This document shows positions 3,348 through 58,416 of a stretch of 64,000 nt of DNA, piece after piece. The translations under genes were made by a program, and so were the position numbers. The notes under the pieces were generated by a model. The model was not told where the DNA came from. It did no database searches and was given only the letters and a program-made list of their open reading frames with translations. Numbering within the stretch: the stretch's first letter is position 1; every line of letters begins with the position of its first letter. Origin of the DNA: Syntrophomonas sp. (GTDB taxonomy: Bacteria; Bacillota; Syntrophomonadia; Syntrophomonadales; Syntrophomonadaceae); the NCBI GenBank assembly GCA_016841245.1, contig JAENZN010000012.1:1-64000 (forward strand). Direction: 5' to 3'.

Positions 3348-3362
3348 GCAGGGGTGATTTTT

Positions 3363-4121
3363 ATGCCTAGAACCGCCAGGAAGCGAAGTGATACCGGGAC
3401 ATATCATGTGATGTTGAGAGGAATAAACCGGCAAACCATATTCGAAGATAATGAGGATTATGAGAAATTTTTGCAAAGATTGAGAGTGTATCGAGAAGAA
3501 TGTGGATATGAAATATATGCTTATTGTTTGATGAGTAACCATGTACACTTGTTAATGAAGGAGGGGGCAGAATATCTAGGGAAAATATTTCGAAGGATAG
3601 GAGCAAGTTATGTTTACTGGTATAACTGGAAATATAGCAGAACTGGACATTTATTTCAGGATAGGTATAAAAGTGAGGTAGTGGAGAATGATCGATATTT
3701 TTTAACGGTATTGCGCTACATACATCAAAATCCTATTAAGGCAAGAATGGCAGATGATATAGGGGAATATCCCTGGAGCAGCTACAATGAGTATATAGGA
3801 CAAGCAGATATTTGTGCTACCCATTTTGCCTTAAGTATATTTTCTGATGACATAAAGACTGCAATAGAGCAGTTTTCAAGTTTTAATAAAGAAGAAAACA
3901 TAGATAAATGCTTGGATTATGAAGAAACAAAAAGGTTGAACGACATAGAAGCAAGAGAATTAATAAAAGATATAGCAAACATCCAAAACCCCAATGCATT
4001 GCAGCGATTTGAAAAAGATAAGAGGGACCTGGTAATTAAACACCTAAAGAATAACGGACTATCAATAAGACAGATAGAAAGATTAACCGGCATCAGTTAT
4101 GGTTTAATAAGGGGTGTTTAG
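3363..4121 (+). CDS. IS200-like REP-associated tyrosine transposase (RAYT)
   Basis: The protein is a Y1 transposase of the REP-associated type. The N-terminal PRTAR...YHVMLRGINRQ segment, the HUH motif in SNHVHLLMKEG and the downstream helix containing RYIHQNPIKA are all visible. A C-terminal helical tail with an HTH-like LSIRQIERLTGISYG follows. It would nick and rejoin single-stranded DNA at hairpin ends. ATG 3363 is preferred over the GTG at 3354 because GGGGTGA (3351-3357) lies just ahead of it. The frame is intact, so it may be active; the protein ends abruptly at GLIRGV. It is the obvious candidate to mobilise the palindromes seen throughout the window. Confidence 0.88.
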   Translation: MPRTARKRSDTGTYHVMLRGINRQTIFEDNEDYEKFLQRLRVYREECGYEIYAYCLMSNHVHLLMKEGAEYLGKIFRRIGASYVYWYNWKYSRTGHLFQDRYKSEVVENDRYFLTVLRYIHQNPIKARMADDIGEYPWSSYNEYIGQADICATHFALSIFSDDIKTAIEQFSSFNKEENIDKCLDYEETKRLNDIEARELIKDIANIQNPNALQRFEKDKRDLVIKHLKNNGLSIRQIERLTGISYGLIRGV

Positions 4122-17392: not shown

Positions 17393-17692
17393 ATGATAAT
17401 ATCAAAAGCCCAGGTGCAGAACATAATGAAGATTTATGGAAAAGATTCCAGTTCTAATCGATTAGATAACATAAAAAGCACCGGGACAGCATCAAAAACG
17501 GATGAGTTGAATATTTCCAGTGCCAGCCGGATTATGCAAAAAGCCATGATAGCGGCAAAACAGGCGCCTGATATACGTTGGGAAAAAGTCAACGAATTGA
17601 AGGAGAAAATGGCATCCGATACTCTGGAGGTATCCGATGAAGACATTGCCGACAAGATTTTGGAACAGGCTTTGACAGACGATTTACTGTGA
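17393..17692 (+). CDS. flgM: Anti-sigma-28 factor FlgM
   Basis: This 99-residue protein carries an N-terminal MIISKAQVQNIMKIYG segment, a low-complexity linker, and the C-terminal sigma-binding helices (IRWEKVNELKEKMASDTLEVSDEDIADKILE, cut here across two helices). That is the normal FlgM layout. It holds the flagellar sigma factor inactive until hook completion allows its export. The ATG at 17393 is chosen for length and GAGGTG upstream. An open frame extends back to 17171 but crosses the terminator and has no family similarity. sigma-28-type promoters are visible upstream of flaG and the minus-strand gene at 28762. Confidence 0.88.
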   Translation: MIISKAQVQNIMKIYGKDSSSNRLDNIKSTGTASKTDELNISSASRIMQKAMIAAKQAPDIRWEKVNELKEKMASDTLEVSDEDIADKILEQALTDDLL

Positions 17693-24195: not shown

Positions 24196-24203
24196 GCCGA
24201 TAT
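24196..24203 (+). promoter_or_regulatory. Candidate sigma-28 -10 box for flagellin
   Basis: GCCGATAT is a perfect match to the flagellar sigma (SigD/FliA) -10 element, 142 bases before the flagellin ATG. No TAAA lies 14-16 bases upstream, so the promoter is only tentatively assigned. It would give a long leader that includes the CsrA site. Confidence 0.4.
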
Positions 24204-26288: not shown

Positions 26289-26317
26289 TGTAAAAAAATG
26301 TTAGAAAGGTGGTTATT

Positions 26318-27988
26318 ATGTCTAAAAAGTATTTATCATTACTGCTTGGGTTGGTTTTTGCTTCGTTACTATTTATACCCAATTGTCAGCCTGCCCTGGC
26401 CAGCAGCTCTATAGTGCAAATGGATGGGGGAGAATGGTTCAGCATAGCCCTAAATGCGGACGGAAGCGTCTGGGCCTGGGGTCATAACCCTCATGGTCAG
26501 TTGGGAGACGGGACAACTACAGCAAGTCTCACACCCGTACAAGTAAGTGGGTTAAATGGAATAATGGCTGTTGCTTCTGGTGCCAGGCATGTACTAGCTT
26601 TGAAAGAAGATGGGAACGTCTGGGCCTGGGGCTATAATTCAAGTGGTCAGCTGGGAGATGGGACGAATACCAACAGCAGCACACCAGTACAGGTAAGTGG
26701 GCTTAATAGTATTACAGATATGGCCAAAGGGGGCTATAGTTTCCACTCCTTGGCTCTGAAAGAAGATGGAACTGTCTGGGCCTGGGGCAAAAATAGTAGT
26801 GGGCAACTGGGAGATGGCACAACTAGTAACAGAAGCATACCAGTTCAGGTTAGCGGATTAAGCAGCATAACAGCAGTAACTCATGGTTATGCTTATTCCA
26901 TAGCTCTGAAAGAAGACGGAACTGTCTGGTCCTGGGGAAGTAATGGTTACGGCCAACTTGGAGATGGGACAACTTTATCTAAGTCCACTCCAGTGCAGGT
27001 AAGCGGGCTAAGCGGGGTAACTACTATTGCTAGTGGTGGTTATCATGCATTGGCTTTGAAAGAAGATGGAACTGTGTGGGCCTGGGGTCGTAATGATTAT
27101 GGTCAGTTGGGAGACGGAACGATGATCAACAGCAGCATACCAGTACAAGTTCTCAGTGGCGTCTCCACAATTGATTGCGGTATATATTATTCAACAGCTT
27201 TGAAAGAAGATGGAACCGTCTGGGTCTGGGGCGATAATGGTTATTATCAGCTGGGAGACGGGACAACGGTAGATAGCAACACTCCGGTGCAGGTAAGCGG
27301 GCTAAGCGGGGTAACAGATATATTTTGTGGGGATAATCATTCTTTTGCTTTTACAGAAAACGGAAGTGTCTGGGCCTGGGGGCGTAATGATTATGGTCAG
27401 CTGGGAGACGGTACAGATACCACCAGGACAACTCCGGTATTATTAAGTGTCAGTTTTGAATCTGGAATACCAGAAAATCTTACTGCGACAGCCGGTGATG
27501 CGCAGGTCAGTTTGAGCTGGACGGGTGTTGATGGCGCTTCAGCTTATAATGTCAAGAGGTCTACTGATTCAGGCGGGCCTTACGATACTGTTGCCTCCAG
27601 TGTATACGAGACTTATTATTTTGATACAGATGTTGTTAACGGCACTACTTATTACTATGTCGTATCGGCAATTATAGATGGTATGGAAGGGGACAATTCC
27701 AATGAGGCGTCAGCTACACCGCAGGCAGCATCCAGTGGTGGTGATACCGGCAGCGGTAACCATGCGATTCTGGAAATAACCATGATGAACGGCTTGGAGA
27801 AAGAGTATGATCTCTCGATTACGGAATTAAACGATTTTATCGAATGGTATGAGGATAGAGCCAGTGGAACGGGGAATTATTATTATGAATTTGAAAAAAC
27901 ATTCAACCTCGGACCTTTTGACAGCAGAACAGATTATATAATCTTTGATAAGATCCTGGATTTTGAAGTCATGGAGTATACCCAATAG
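26318..27988 (+). CDS. Secreted RCC1-repeat beta-propeller protein with Fn3 domain
   Basis: This 556-residue protein has a signal peptide (about 1-28, cleaved after ALA), then seven RCC1 repeats of about 50 residues (each with ALKEDGTVWAWG and GQLGDGT-like blocks), which would close a seven-bladed propeller. A fibronectin type III domain (about 385-470: VSLSWTGVDGASAYNVKRS) and a Gly/Ser linker follow. A last domain of about 70 residues (ILEITMMNGLEKEYDLSITE...FDKILDFEVMEY) is one I cannot name. ATG 26318 fits the GAAAGGTGG ribosome site. It is probably extracellular or surface-bound with a protein- or ligand-binding role. It sits between flagellin and flaG in its own transcription unit. The repeats are nearly identical at DNA level and could vary by recombination. 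Confidence 0.85.
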   Translation: MSKKYLSLLLGLVFASLLFIPNCQPALASSSIVQMDGGEWFSIALNADGSVWAWGHNPHGQLGDGTTTASLTPVQVSGLNGIMAVASGARHVLALKEDGNVWAWGYNSSGQLGDGTNTNSSTPVQVSGLNSITDMAKGGYSFHSLALKEDGTVWAWGKNSSGQLGDGTTSNRSIPVQVSGLSSITAVTHGYAYSIALKEDGTVWSWGSNGYGQLGDGTTLSKSTPVQVSGLSGVTTIASGGYHALALKEDGTVWAWGRNDYGQLGDGTMINSSIPVQVLSGVSTIDCGIYYSTALKEDGTVWVWGDNGYYQLGDGTTVDSNTPVQVSGLSGVTDIFCGDNHSFAFTENGSVWAWGRNDYGQLGDGTDTTRTTPVLLSVSFESGIPENLTATAGDAQVSLSWTGVDGASAYNVKRSTDSGGPYDTVASSVYETYYFDTDVVNGTTYYYVVSAIIDGMEGDNSNEASATPQAASSGGDTGSGNHAILEITMMNGLEKEYDLSITELNDFIEWYEDRASGTGNYYYEFEKTFNLGPFDSRTDYIIFDKILDFEVMEYTQ

Positions 27989-28082: not shown

Positions 28083-28493
28083 CTATCCACCATAAACCTG
28101 GCCTCTTTCCTGGATTTTTTCTATGATTGCTTTTCTTTCTTCATTTAAGCGGGCATATTTTTTTAGTGCCAGCATAAAAAATTCCTTTCGGAAGTAGGGT
28201 TTTGCATCATATATTATTTTGCCATTTTTCAGTATTTGCACCTGCATAACAGGGGAAACCTGGGCTAGATCAATTAAGTCTGCGTCTTTTTTCAAAAGAT
28301 ATGATAATTGCTGGGCCGAGGAAAAAATATCTATACTGACGGGTTTATTTTCACTGAGAAAAGCAATGTCAATATCACTATCAGGGCGCACTTTATTAGT
28401 GACGCTGGAGCCGAAGATAATGATAAGGACAGCACCCATTTCTTGGGATAGATATTTAATAATTTGCTTTTCCAATGAGCTGATATTATCCAT
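28083..28493 (-). CDS. MNT-type minimal nucleotidyltransferase, orphan antitoxin-like
   Basis: This 136-residue protein has the nucleotidyltransferase signature IIIFGSSVTNKVRPDSDIDIAFL (GS motif and paired Asp, written here across two blocks: GSS then DSDID). A third acidic position is in DADLIDL. MNT proteins usually act as antitoxins that AMPylate a HEPN toxin encoded next to them. No HEPN gene is present on either side: downstream there are only about 90 bases before the RCC1 gene. It may therefore be an orphan or have its toxin elsewhere. It lies on the minus strand amid plus-strand flagellar genes. The ATG overlaps no other gene. Confidence 0.82.
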   Translation of the reverse strand: MDNISSLEKQIIKYLSQEMGAVLIIIFGSSVTNKVRPDSDIDIAFLSENKPVSIDIFSSAQQLSYLLKKDADLIDLAQVSPVMQVQILKNGKIIYDAKPYFRKEFFMLALKKYARLNEERKAIIEKIQERGQVYGG

Positions 28494-28761: not shown

Positions 28762-29814
28762 TTATATTCTCAAATCAATCTGCTGTATGGTTCCGGCAGT
28801 GCCGTTTTCCCGCAGGAATATCCCGCTGGACACTGCTTGGCCATTCAATTCATTGCTGCTATCGGTAAGGGAAAATTCACTAGCCACACAGGCCAGGCAG
28901 ATAGCGCCTATTCCTTTTTGTCCCAGGGCAAAAAGGACATCATTGCCGTTTTCATCTTTGGTCCAGATCTGAAGTTTATCGAATATGGAATCACCTTCGT
29001 CGATCCAGCCGTTACCGTCTTCATCATACTGAGCCAGGTCGGCAAAGCCATCTCCGCTGTTGGGACCGAAAAGCTCGCTGCCGTCATTGATTACCCCGTC
29101 ATTATTTTGGTCCAGGGCGAGAAAACCACTGCCTTCCTGGAGGAAAGATATGGTATCCATATTACCATCACTATCCAGGTCAAATGAAAAATTTCTTTCA
29201 GTCAGTTCAGCAGCCGTACCGCTGAAGTTTATTACCAGGGGATCGCAAAGAGCGGCGTCACCGGCTCGTATGTGCAATTCATTATGGGAATAAAATGAGC
29301 GGGACATATTTAGACTTACTGCTATCTGTATCTCCTGCCCGTCAGAGGTCTTTACTATGCCGCTGGCCTGAAAGCTGGTACTCTCCATCTCCTGGTAAGT
29401 TTCAGAATAATCATAGGAATATCCCCAGCCTCCCCTTGCGCTTTCAGTATTACTGATTTTTATCTGGCGAATTTGCTGTTTTATTTCTTGAAGCTGTTTC
29501 TGCTGTTCAGAACTAAAATCGGTGCGGAGAGAGAAAAGACGGCATGGTTTTCCGGTAAAAGCTTCTAACAGGGTTTTTAGAATATGGAGTTTCATTTCTT
29601 CCCTGGATGATATATTTTGTCCCTGAGCCTCCTGGGCTGCGGTGGATATTTCTACCTCATCGCTGATGGAAGCGGGGATGCTGCGGTTGTCACTCTCAAC
29701 GTTATTCCCAGCCGCATTGCTGCTGCTCCAGAAGCTGAAACTTTCGGATTTATTCAGACTTTCCTGGTAGGAACGCTGGGATGACATTTCTAGTACTGTA
29801 CTCTGTATAATCAT
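28762..29814 (-). CDS. Hypothetical flagellar-cluster protein with Ca-binding-like acidic loops
   Basis: This 350-residue protein has no signal peptide. The N-terminal 100 residues are Ser/Asn/Gln-rich and probably disordered; a helical stretch (EQQKQLQEIKQQIRQIKIS) follows, then a beta-rich region. Three aspartate-rich loops come next (DLDSDGNMDTISF, DQNNDGVINDGSELFG, DEDGNGWIDEGDSIFD), resembling dockerin/EF-hand or VCBS-type calcium loops. The start has a full AAAGGAGGT ribosome site. A sigma-28-like promoter (29845-29872, minus strand) lies directly upstream and back to back with the flaG promoter, so the gene is probably in the late flagellar regulon. It may be exported through the flagellum or act at the surface. 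I cannot name the family with confidence. Confidence 0.75.
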   Translation of the reverse strand: MIIQSTVLEMSSQRSYQESLNKSESFSFWSSSNAAGNNVESDNRSIPASISDEVEISTAAQEAQGQNISSREEMKLHILKTLLEAFTGKPCRLFSLRTDFSSEQQKQLQEIKQQIRQIKISNTESARGGWGYSYDYSETYQEMESTSFQASGIVKTSDGQEIQIAVSLNMSRSFYSHNELHIRAGDAALCDPLVINFSGTAAELTERNFSFDLDSDGNMDTISFLQEGSGFLALDQNNDGVINDGSELFGPNSGDGFADLAQYDEDGNGWIDEGDSIFDKLQIWTKDENGNDVLFALGQKGIGAICLACVASEFSLTDSSNELNGQAVSSGIFLRENGTAGTIQQIDLRI

Positions 29815-29844
29815 AATAGTACCTCCTTTGTCTCTATATATTTA

Positions 29845-29872
29845 ATATCGCCGGACAATGCGGTTAACTTTA
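29845..29872 (-). promoter_or_regulatory. Sigma-28-type promoter, minus strand
   Basis: On the minus strand, TAAA (29872-29869) is followed after 16 bases by GGCGATAT (29852-29845). The SigD consensus is TAAA, 15 bases, GCCGATAT. It is 31 bases from the start codon of the 28762-29814 gene. Confidence 0.65.
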
Positions 29873-29900
29873 ACATTTTATGTAAAAAAACAGTATGAGC

Positions 29901-29927
29901 TAAAGTTTCGGTAATTCTGGACGATAT
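29901..29927 (+). promoter_or_regulatory. Sigma-28-type promoter of flaG-fliS
   Basis: TAAA (29901-29904), exactly 15 bases, then GACGATAT (29920-29927), which matches seven of eight bases of the flagellar -10 consensus. It sits 33 bases before the flaG ATG. Confidence 0.8.
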
Positions 29928-29960: not shown

Positions 29961-30323
29961 ATGATGCGAGTTGAAGGACAGCTGGATTCCAGCTGGGTTA
30001 ATAGCAGCAGCCCAACTGCCACAGAAGCTTCGGAGAGCAAGAAAAGCGGAGACTTAAATACGAGTGCCGAGAAAACCAATAAGATTGAAAAACAGGATCT
30101 GGAACAGGCGGTAGATATAGCCAATCAAAGCATGCGTATGGGTAATTACCACCTGGAGTTTAAAATGCATGAGGGCAGCGGCCGGTACCAGGTGAAAGTA
30201 GTTGATTCAGAAACCCAGGATCTTATTCGTGAAATACCTCCTGAACAGGTACTCAATTTTGCCGCCCGGGTCAAGGAAATGCTAGCGGAGGAATTAGGGA
30301 TTATTGTTGATGAATGGGCATAA
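29961..30323 (+). CDS. flaG: FlaG family protein
   Basis: This 120-residue protein has a disordered Ser/Thr/Lys-rich N-terminal half. A FlaG domain covers about 45-115 (YHLEFKMHEGSGRYQVKVVDSETQDLIREIPPEQVL contains the typical strand-turn-strand and the IREIPPEQ motif). FlaG/YvyC affects filament length and is a late gene. GGGAGGAATT precedes tandem ATG codons at 29961 and 29964; either could be used. It leads a sigma-28 operon with fliS and a FliT-like gene. Confidence 0.9.
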   Translation: MMRVEGQLDSSWVNSSSPTATEASESKKSGDLNTSAEKTNKIEKQDLEQAVDIANQSMRMGNYHLEFKMHEGSGRYQVKVVDSETQDLIREIPPEQVLNFAARVKEMLAEELGIIVDEWA

Positions 30324-30396: not shown

Positions 30397-30822
30397 GTGA
30401 ACGCAAATAAACAACTATATGATCAGTATAAAAAAACTAGTGTTGAAACTACATCTCAGGGCAATCTTGTGATTATGCTCTACAATGGCTGCATTACCAA
30501 TATCCAAAAAGCTAAACAGGCTATCCGTAATAGGGAAACTCAGAATGCACATGAAAATATCATAAAGGCCCAGAAAATAATCATTGAGCTGATTGTGACT
30601 TTAAATATGGAATATGATATTGCTCAGCGGCTATTTGTTGTATATGAATATATATATAACCAGTTAGTAGATGCCAACATCAGAAAGGACATTACGCTGC
30701 TGGATGAAGCGGAAAGTTATTTGGCTGATATGCGGGATACCTGGCAGGATGCAATACTGCAGTTAAAGCAGTCCTCGTTAACAAATCCTCAGAAAAATGT
30801 AAGTTTTACAGTTAGGGGTTAG
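30397..30822 (+). CDS. fliS: Flagellin export chaperone FliS
   Basis: This 141-residue four-helix protein has the FliS signature (YDQYKKTSVETTSQGNLVIMLYNGCI, split at the SQG turn) and the conserved middle NMEYDIAQRLFVVYEYIYNQL. It binds unfolded flagellin C-termini in the cytoplasm, preventing early polymerisation. The GTG start has GAGGAGGTAAAAGG upstream. The next gene follows after six bases. Confidence 0.93.
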   Translation: MNANKQLYDQYKKTSVETTSQGNLVIMLYNGCITNIQKAKQAIRNRETQNAHENIIKAQKIIIELIVTLNMEYDIAQRLFVVYEYIYNQLVDANIRKDITLLDEAESYLADMRDTWQDAILQLKQSSLTNPQKNVSFTVRG

Positions 30823-30828
30823 AGAGCT

Positions 30829-31308
30829 ATGGAAAAAGAAGCCTGTCTGGCAGATACTATGATGGTGCTAAAAAAAATGTATATGCAGCTTCTGCAGGTA
30901 TCGAGTACGGGTCTGGAATTATTCGAAAAGGGCTTAAGTGATGAAGAATTACTTGGGGAAATAAAGCTTATTGTAAAAAAACGAAAGTCATTGATAAAAA
31001 AGATAAGAAGAACAGCAGACCGAGTACAGGCAATGGAAACCAAACTTCTGGAGGAAACAAAAATGCTGGACAGCAGCCTCGCCAATCATAGTCAAAAATA
31101 TCAAGAATATCTGGAGACAAAAGGTGAGGTGATAGATCTAATCAGAGTAATTCAGGTTAATAATTCTCGAAACCGGGACTTGCTGCTTAATACGAAAATG
31201 GAAATCAGCAAAAAAATTGGAGAAAATCGTAAGATAAGGACCGCAGTAAATTCTTATCAACCTAAACCGATTTATTATAATGCTTCGTTTTTTGATCAAA
31301 AAAAATAG
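30829..31308 (+). CDS. FliT-like helical flagellar chaperone
   Basis: This 159-residue protein is almost wholly helical and charged. Helices cover roughly 5-30, 40-80 and 90-145 (SLIKKIRRTADRVQAMETKL), and the tail ends YYNASFFDQKK. Its place directly behind fliS matches FliT, a FliD-specific chaperone, but sequence alone does not separate FliT from FlgN types. A degenerate copy of its 3' half lies just downstream (31378-31596), including the C-terminal FFD(Q/K) K motif. Confidence 0.7.
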   Translation: MEKEACLADTMMVLKKMYMQLLQVSSTGLELFEKGLSDEELLGEIKLIVKKRKSLIKKIRRTADRVQAMETKLLEETKMLDSSLANHSQKYQEYLETKGEVIDLIRVIQVNNSRNRDLLLNTKMEISKKIGENRKIRTAVNSYQPKPIYYNASFFDQKK

Positions 31309-31652: not shown

Positions 31653-32123
31653 TTGGTGGTTAAGCAGATTATCAGGGAAATAATAGATAACTTTCATAAA
31701 CAGCTAAGTCTTTATCAGAAGATGTCAGAATTGTCTTCTGCTCAGTTGAATTGTCTGGAAAAAAAACAGGCTATGTCTGGAAAACTTAAAGATATCATGT
31801 ATAAGCGCCAGGCACTTATGGAGGATATAAGTTCGCTAAATGAGAAAAATCGTGCCAGCCAGCAGCAGGCAGTGCAGCGATTGAATATTGGCGAATTTGT
31901 ATTAAGTAAACTGCAGGGTCAGATTGAAGCGGAGGATTATGAACAATTAGGAGATATCGTTAACAGGTTGGGATCTATATTGGAAGTAATCGACGAAATG
32001 GACCGGAAAAACCAGTTGCTGATGATGGAAGTAAATACCAACCAGGCAGGGGGCGAGATAAAAGCCAGCAGCAAACAGGCCAGCGATGCTTATCGCAGGT
32101 CCATGGATTTGGATAAGAATTAA
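31653..32123 (+). CDS. FlgN/FliT-like helical protein
   Basis: This 156-residue, predominantly helical protein (IIDNFHKQLSLYQKMSELSS, then a long amphipathic helix and a polar tail) resembles the FlgN superfamily of flagellar export chaperones in composition and gene position. It could chaperone FliD, or be a third chaperone beside FlgN and the FliT-like protein. The start is TTG 31653 or GTG 31656, both behind AAGGAAG. The sequence family cannot be settled by eye. Confidence 0.6.
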   Translation: MVVKQIIREIIDNFHKQLSLYQKMSELSSAQLNCLEKKQAMSGKLKDIMYKRQALMEDISSLNEKNRASQQQAVQRLNIGEFVLSKLQGQIEAEDYEQLGDIVNRLGSILEVIDEMDRKNQLLMMEVNTNQAGGEIKASSKQASDAYRRSMDLDKN

Positions 32124-57381: not shown

Positions 57382-58416
57382 ATGCAGAATGATTTAAGTG
57401 TTGAAAAAATGATGGGATATCTTTATGAACTGCCGGATCAGTTCCAAAACAGCCTGGGCCTAAAGTTTGATTTTATCGAACAGTATAAGAAGGTCTACCG
57501 CAATGTCGTGGTAACCGGATTAGGAGGCTCTGCAATCGGAGGCGATATTCTAAGGAATTATGCGGCCAAGCAGGCTAGCATTCCGGTGGTAGTGAACCGT
57601 GATTATAATCTTCCAGCTTTTGTAGGACCTGATACTCTGGTTTTTGCGGTTAGCTATTCAGGAAATACAGAGGAAACCTTGGAAGCATACCAAAAGGCTG
57701 TAAATCGAGGAGCAGACGTTATAGTCTTGAGCAGTGGGGGGAAACTTTCAGAATATGCTCGCCGAGATAATAAAGCGGTTATCCAGGTTCCAACTGGTTT
57801 TGTACCCCGGGCTGCCGCGGCCTGGCTGTTTGCGCCGGTGGTTCTTCTACTGGGCCAGATGGGGATATTGTCAGGAATAGAGGACGAAATAAAAGAAACA
57901 GTTGAAATATTAAAACAGCTCAGAGAATCTCTAAATCCCACCTTAGATGTGCCGATAAATATAGCTCGCGTTATCGCTGGGAAAACTCGGGGTAATTTTC
58001 CGGTAATTTGGGGAACTACAGGTGTATCAGAGGTAGCGGCTCAGCGCTGGAAAGCACAGATTAATGAAAACGCCAAAAGTCCTGCCTATTATAATGTATT
58101 TCCCGAACTTAACCATAACGAAATCGTAGGCTTTGAAGTTCCTCAGGATTTACTGCGCCGGCAGGTTTATATTATTTTGAGAGATAATGGGGATAATGAG
58201 CGTATCAAAAAGCGTATCGAAATAAGTAAAACTATAATAAAAGACCAGGTGAAACACATAATTGAAGTTAGCAGCAGAGGGGAATCTTATTTAGCCCGAG
58301 TTTTCTCTCTTATATATGTAGGTGATTACGCCAGTGTCTACCTGGCCCTAGAATATGGTATCAACCCCACCCCGGTAAAGATGATAGACTATCTTAAAGA
58401 ACAGCTGGCTAAATAA
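57382..58416 (+). CDS. Bifunctional phosphoglucose/phosphomannose isomerase
   Basis: This 344-residue SIS-domain isomerase has the phosphate-binding stretches TGLGGSAIGGDILRNY and FAVSYSGNTEETLEAY and the C-terminal VFPELNHNEIVGFE typical of the bifunctional PGI/PMI family. It interconverts glucose-6-P, fructose-6-P and mannose-6-P. ATG 57382, behind GGGGGGA, is preferred over upstream in-frame ATGs that precede that site. It may feed the surface-sugar genes near 10.8-13.7 kb. Confidence 0.9.
   Translation: MQNDLSVEKMMGYLYELPDQFQNSLGLKFDFIEQYKKVYRNVVVTGLGGSAIGGDILRNYAAKQASIPVVVNRDYNLPAFVGPDTLVFAVSYSGNTEETLEAYQKAVNRGADVIVLSSGGKLSEYARRDNKAVIQVPTGFVPRAAAAWLFAPVVLLLGQMGILSGIEDEIKETVEILKQLRESLNPTLDVPINIARVIAGKTRGNFPVIWGTTGVSEVAAQRWKAQINENAKSPAYYNVFPELNHNEIVGFEVPQDLLRRQVYIILRDNGDNERIKKRIEISKTIIKDQVKHIIEVSSRGESYLARVFSLIYVGDYASVYLALEYGINPTPVKMIDYLKEQLAK

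Follow-up and report, generated by a model that had tools for sequence, protein, structure and literature searches.

A gene assigned to the sigma-28 flagellar regulon of Syntrophomonas whose protein is predicted to carry the fold of the FrpC self-processing module

The locus described here lies inside a flagellar gene cluster of Syntrophomonas sp., in a stretch of 64,000 nucleotides that was analysed as a whole (the window). Its centre is a minus-strand gene that diverges from flaG. Within the organism's own family the order fliD, fliC, this gene, flaG, fliS, fliT-like, zinc-finger, hpf, secA, motA, motB, prfB is largely kept, the gene adjoining or lying near flaG in either orientation, between fliC and flaG-fliS. 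The features considered are the following.

28762-29814, minus strand: the minus-strand gene, for a 350-residue protein assigned to the sigma-28 regulon, with a C-terminal domain like a self-processing module (SPM)
28765-29241, minus strand: SPM-fold domain, residues 192-350, 16.9 kDa (profile, Foldseek and structure alignment)
29239-29244, minus strand: Asp191-Pro192, which the profile and structure alignments place in register with the D414-P415 bond cleaved in FrpC
29242-29814, minus strand: N-terminal part, residues 1-191, 21.4 kDa, the would-be reactive fragment (AlphaFold model)
29821-29829, minus strand: ribosome-binding site AAAGGAGGT of the minus-strand gene, read directly
29845-29872, minus strand: sigma-28-like promoter of the minus-strand gene, TAAA-16-GGCGATAT
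29901-29927, plus strand: sigma-28-like promoter of flaG, TAAA-15-GACGATAT, read directly
29961-30323, plus strand: flaG (Pfam FlaG, E 1.7e-24)
30397-30822, plus strand: fliS, the flagellin chaperone gene (Pfam FliS, E 1.2e-36)

A sequence-only reading of this DNA had proposed back-to-back sigma-28 promoters between flaG and the 28762-29814 gene, with spacers of 15 and 16 bases and 28 bases between the sites, and direct inspection confirms positions, spacers, gap and neighbours, the identity of FlaG resting on its Pfam match. The flaG site reads TAAA GTTTCGGTAATTCTG GACGATAT on the plus strand (15-base spacer), the site of the minus-strand gene reads TAAA GTTAACCGCATTGTCC GGCGATAT from 29872 to 29845 (16-base spacer), and the gap comprises 29873-29900. 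Scored on the 12 letters of the consensus TAAA-N15-GCCGATAT, each site matches at 11, which bears out the close agreement that had been claimed. From the end of the -10 element to the ATG there are 33 bp for flaG and 30 bp for the minus-strand gene, with a good ribosome-binding site in between in both cases. When the 146-bp interval was subjected to first-order Markov shuffling, a site of at least 11/12 appeared on one given strand in ~0.25% of shuffles (about 1 in 400), and none of the 20,000 shuffles had one on both strands; the whole 64-kb window contains only three 11/12 sites, namely the promoter pair and an unrelated one at 57932.

A genome-wide search for further sites, proposed by the same reading as a check, does not discriminate: the pattern TAAA-N14-16-GMCGATAW has 21 matches, against 23 for the reversed control, with no excess over chance. 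A lone match hence proves nothing, and conservation was used as the test instead; the case for the promoters is carried by position, pairing and conservation, not by single matches. The same count is what could be argued for both sites being chance matches and for a gene that is independent of sigma-28. We regard this as very improbable, since the sites are paired, correctly placed and not reproduced by shuffling, and since comparable sites are enriched before the orthologues of the gene.

Concerning this enrichment, two relatives of the same genus share the divergent pair formed by flaG and the minus-strand gene. In the window and in both relatives flaG is preceded by the same TAAAGTTT and CGATAT promoter blocks. 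Before the minus-strand gene each of the two relatives carries a TAAAG...GCGATA site of its own, at a distance of 46-57 bp from the start as annotated. Across the phylum the orthologues are preceded by TAAA-N14-16-(N)CCGATAA/T, typically 30-90 bp upstream, and beyond the genus the site persists even where flagellar genes are not adjacent. With the same scoring throughout, and with near-duplicate genomes and loci left in, sites of at least 10/12 were found at 21 of 39 orthologue loci versus 8 of 465 other ORFs in a first sample and at 16 of 30 versus 6 of 95 in a second; pooled, the figures are 37/69 and 14/560 (p ~3e-29). This p value is optimistic because some of the orthologue loci are near-duplicates of one another, but the enrichment itself is not in doubt.

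The genome holds one FliA-type sigma factor above cut-off (FliA_WhiG match, 267 bits) and one FlgM, the latter located in the window at 17501-17665. SigD promoters of C. difficile have their TAAA and CG elements 15-18 bases apart (PMC3865298), a separation that both window sites satisfy. The likeness to the SigD/FliA promoters of C. difficile and B. subtilis extends to the TAAA and CG elements, their spacing and the distance to the gene, the only unusual features here being the back-to-back layout and, for the minus-strand site, a spacer of 16 bases. Membership of the minus-strand gene in the FliA/SigD (sigma-28) flagellar regulon, as the sequence-only reading had proposed, is strongly supported by this comparison of sequences, in the absence of an expression experiment. 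The gene would then be transcribed late, alongside flaG-fliS and flagellin.

The larger result is the protein: the gene belongs to a flagellum-linked family with the SPM fold and an invariant Asp-Pro, for which self-processing is inferred only. The product had been described as unrecognised, and single-sequence searches of Pfam and NCBIfam indeed give no family above cut-off; weak Pfam matches to Anth_Ig, DUF6802 and EF-hand_6, all below it, were rejected. A profile of 13 orthologues compared with PDB sequences nevertheless returns 6SJW (E 1.9e-12) and 6SJX (E 7.7e-11) as the sole entries with small E-values. Both are the SPM of FrpC, and the match covers residues 189-350, from the scissile Asp-Pro onward; a 32-sequence profile agrees, with matches to these two entries only. 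The AlphaFold model used (m9b134c40269f; 32 sequences, pLDDT 78), which replaced a 13-sequence model of pLDDT 65, has a confidence of ~90 over residues 191-310 and mostly 80-90 up to the C terminus. Foldseek with this model ranks 6SJX and 6SJW as the top two (E 3e-10 and 1e-9, the next being 0.009), and VIA-align gives Z 19.6 over 147 residues with rmsd 2.8 for 6SJW and Z 18.9 over 151 residues with rmsd 2.4 for 6SJX, followed by Z 5.6 for the next-best row. In this alignment model residue 192 falls on chain residue 1 (P415) of the cleaved SPM, and residue 350 on residue 170. Profile and predicted structure together show that the C-terminal domain has the fold of the FrpC self-processing module, and the protein is a homologue of that module.

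The predicted domain contains two EF-hand-like loops, D235-E247 and D264-D275. In the N-terminal part, the model places long strands at 3-30, 130-156 and 161-185 around a low-confidence linker. A resemblance of this half, as part of the full-length model, to the long hairpins of pore-forming proteins (Z 4-5.6) was rejected, the arrangement being a common one. There are no GGXGXDXXX nonapeptide repeats in the 350-residue sequence, which does not meet the description of an RTX protein (repeats, large size) and should not be filed as one.

The FrpC module cleaves its Asp-Pro bond on binding Ca2+, and its D414, D478 and D579 hold a transient fifth Ca2+ ion (Kuban et al. 2020, PMC7078468). Of these, D478 and D579 do not act as the catalyst: Asn is tolerated at both, D579N being active and D478N only moderately slowed, while D579A is inactive (PMC7078468). 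In the present family all 62 orthologues examined, near-duplicates among them, have D191-P192, down to ~33% identity. The same holds for D235, D264, D266, D272, D275 and D347, and W284 (FrpC W519) is kept in 60 of the 62. The position of FrpC D478 is occupied by P, T or A and that of D579 (residue 345) by Q or H, so that neither provides the aspartate expected near the scissile bond. The invariant D347 stands two residues past Q/H345, on the last strand and facing the cleavage site, as judged from the numbering of the profile alignment and the structural end points. When the four Ca2+ sites of FrpC are compared (D419-G424 with D456; D462-E474; D499-D511; D521-E532), the N-terminal one (D419/D421/D423) is lost here, the D521-E532 loop is shortened and the two other loops are conserved; the position of W451 is mostly F in the orthologues. 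The segment FDLDSDG at 211-217 may stand in for the lost first site. Since several of the Ca2+ ligands known from FrpC are replaced, activity is plausible but has not been demonstrated, and Ca2+-dependent self-processing by the 350-residue protein remains undecided without an experiment.

These substitutions are also what one would expect if the protein, still under sigma-28 control, carried an inactive SPM fold that does no more than bind Ca2+ and has a structural or adhesive role at or close to the flagellum, its Asp-Pro being structural: the D478 and D579 positions are altered, two of the four FrpC Ca2+ sites are lost, and conserved EF-hand-like loops remain. We think this unlikely, though it deserves serious attention. 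An Asp-Pro kept through 62 sequences exceeds the need of a structural turn, an RTX protein of Bacillota type (locus L061) has one in the matching register, and D347, opposite the cleavage site, is invariant too.

The reading that we prefer, and which we consider about equally likely to hold or to fail as a whole, is that of a late sigma-28-regulon protein in two parts that is exported and clipped by Ca2+ at Asp191-Pro192, its N-terminal fragment possibly becoming linked. Export, Ca2+-triggered cleavage and covalent linking are inferences, with no experiment behind them. The product would consist of a beta-rich N-terminal part of ~190 residues and the SPM-fold domain, and the latter, to judge from FrpC, would be unfolded in the low-Ca2+ cytosol. 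As the sequence contains neither a signal peptide nor a transmembrane stretch (maximal 19-residue hydropathy 1.85), export would probably proceed via the flagellar type III apparatus. The same absence could point to a protein that is never exported, belongs to the sigma-28 regulon by chance and, in the cytoplasm, regulates flagellar assembly or chemotaxis in response to Ca2+. Late flagellar export substrates, however, lack signal peptides as well. Moreover, the Ca2+ affinity of the FrpC module, near 150 uM (PMC7078468), is far above cytosolic Ca2+, and we hold a cytoplasmic role to be quite improbable.

For the exported two-part protein, extracellular Ca2+ is inferred to fold the module and thereby to break the Asp191-Pro192 bond, which would turn the protein of 38.3 kDa into fragments of 21.4 and 16.9 kDa, the first and N-terminal of them ending in an aspartic anhydride. 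This anhydride might react with a lysine of a neighbour (flagellin, the cap or another copy), and the N-terminal fragment would thereby be fixed covalently to the flagellum or another surface. The predicted N-terminal strands and the low-confidence linker could bind the partner ahead of linking. An SPM-fold protein in the flagellar regulon suggests an undescribed covalent step in flagellated bacteria. The wider proposal is put forward tentatively, as one whose chances we place somewhat below even. It holds that in a widespread flagellum-linked family of this phylum Ca2+ triggers extracellular clipping at Asp-Pro and linking of Asp to Lys, which would bond a protein fragment covalently to the flagellum or to a surface in contact with it, and would be an instance of this chemistry independent of RTX proteins and of type I secretion.

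The distribution of the gene is patchy. The search of its own family found it in 8 of 37 genomes, and it was present in 35 of 299 sampled across the phylum and in 42 of 246 from another order of the phylum; these counts include a few partial matches or matches that belong to larger RTX-like proteins. In many other lineages the gene is not beside flagellar genes, which, like the patchiness, counts against the preferred reading. The carrier genomes are flagellated: in the phylum sample flagellin was found in 30 of 30 high-quality carriers versus 221 of 267 genomes overall (p 0.002), two low-completeness carriers being without a flagellin match, and in the order sample FliS was present in 42 of 42 carriers versus 169 of 246 overall (p 2e-8). 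A single-sequence scan of genome contigs retrieved only two relatives, both from Lachnospiraceae MAGs. Large ORFs that flank the gene in other lineages were considered as chemotaxis receptors and rejected, as they encode UbiD, dihydroxy-acid dehydratase, a sigma-54 activator, RmuC and others.

To our knowledge, SPMs have been described only from RTX proteins. The family described here resembles the SPM of N. meningitidis FrpC (6SJW, 6SJX) and ApxIVA in its fold over ~150 residues, in the domain boundary at Asp-Pro, in the EF-hand-like loops D462-E474 and D499-D510, in W519 and in the C-terminal strand beside the cleavage site. It differs in that the module forms the C terminus of a small protein of 350 residues with no RTX repeats and with a flagellar promoter; with respect to the FrpC module, identity is ~25%, D478 and D579 are replaced, the N-terminal Ca2+ site is lost and the third loop is shortened. 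In Filifactor alocis (Firmicutes) the RTX protein FtxA also has an SPM-like region, a further case of such a domain in a Gram-positive-type lineage (PMC7692872), but FtxA is a large RTX protein, whereas the present family is small and flagellum-linked. The L061 protein (from genome G159, same phylum) is likewise larger, with an SPM-like domain that starts WDPLTLDLNGDG and glycine-aspartate repeats downstream, and represents an RTX-type SPM outside Gram-negative bacteria. Precedent for covalent linkage of flagellar proteins comes from the flagellar hook of spirochetes, which is cross-linked through lysinoalanine (PMC10691653); chemistry, subunit (FlgE) and lineage all differ there. No paper linking an SPM to flagella was found in open-access full text, and one elsewhere is not excluded.

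If the domain is active, the clip-and-link chemistry is not limited to RTX proteins and belongs to the flagellar programme of many bacteria, with Ca2+-gated covalent bonding at the surface of flagellated cells. In that case the diverged modules, in which D478 and D579 are naturally replaced, would also offer material with which to test the twisted-amide mechanism and to build tools for protein ligation through anhydrides. At minimum, an unnamed gene family of the flagellar regulon gains a fold and a testable function.

Several further observations concern the surrounding genes. Upstream of fliC there is a perfect GCCGATAT -10 box (24196-24203, plus strand), 141 bp before the fliC start, with a poor -35 and no TAAA at the usual spacing. 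Between fliC and the minus-strand gene, inside the flagellar cluster, lies an ORF (26309-27988, plus strand; Pfam RCC1 E 2.7e-96) whose product is a beta-propeller protein of RCC1 repeats that also has an fn3 domain and, apparently, a hydrophobic leader at its N terminus; this ORF is missing at that position in the related loci read. Elsewhere in the window an ORF at 3354-4121 (plus strand) resembles REP-associated transposases, and a 46% identical relative of it is found in another genome of the genus (L023, 4440-5213, minus strand), where it lies in the interval from fliC to the minus-strand gene, from which we conclude that this interval takes up foreign genes. Just downstream of the minus-strand gene, 28083-28493 (minus strand) encodes an MNT-like nucleotidyltransferase of the polymerase-beta type (Pfam Polbeta E 1.3e-19). 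Finally, 30829-31308 and 31653-32123 (plus strand) encode two successive small FliT-like helical proteins, of which the second is 78% identical within the genus and the first only ~28%, an unusual difference in rate.
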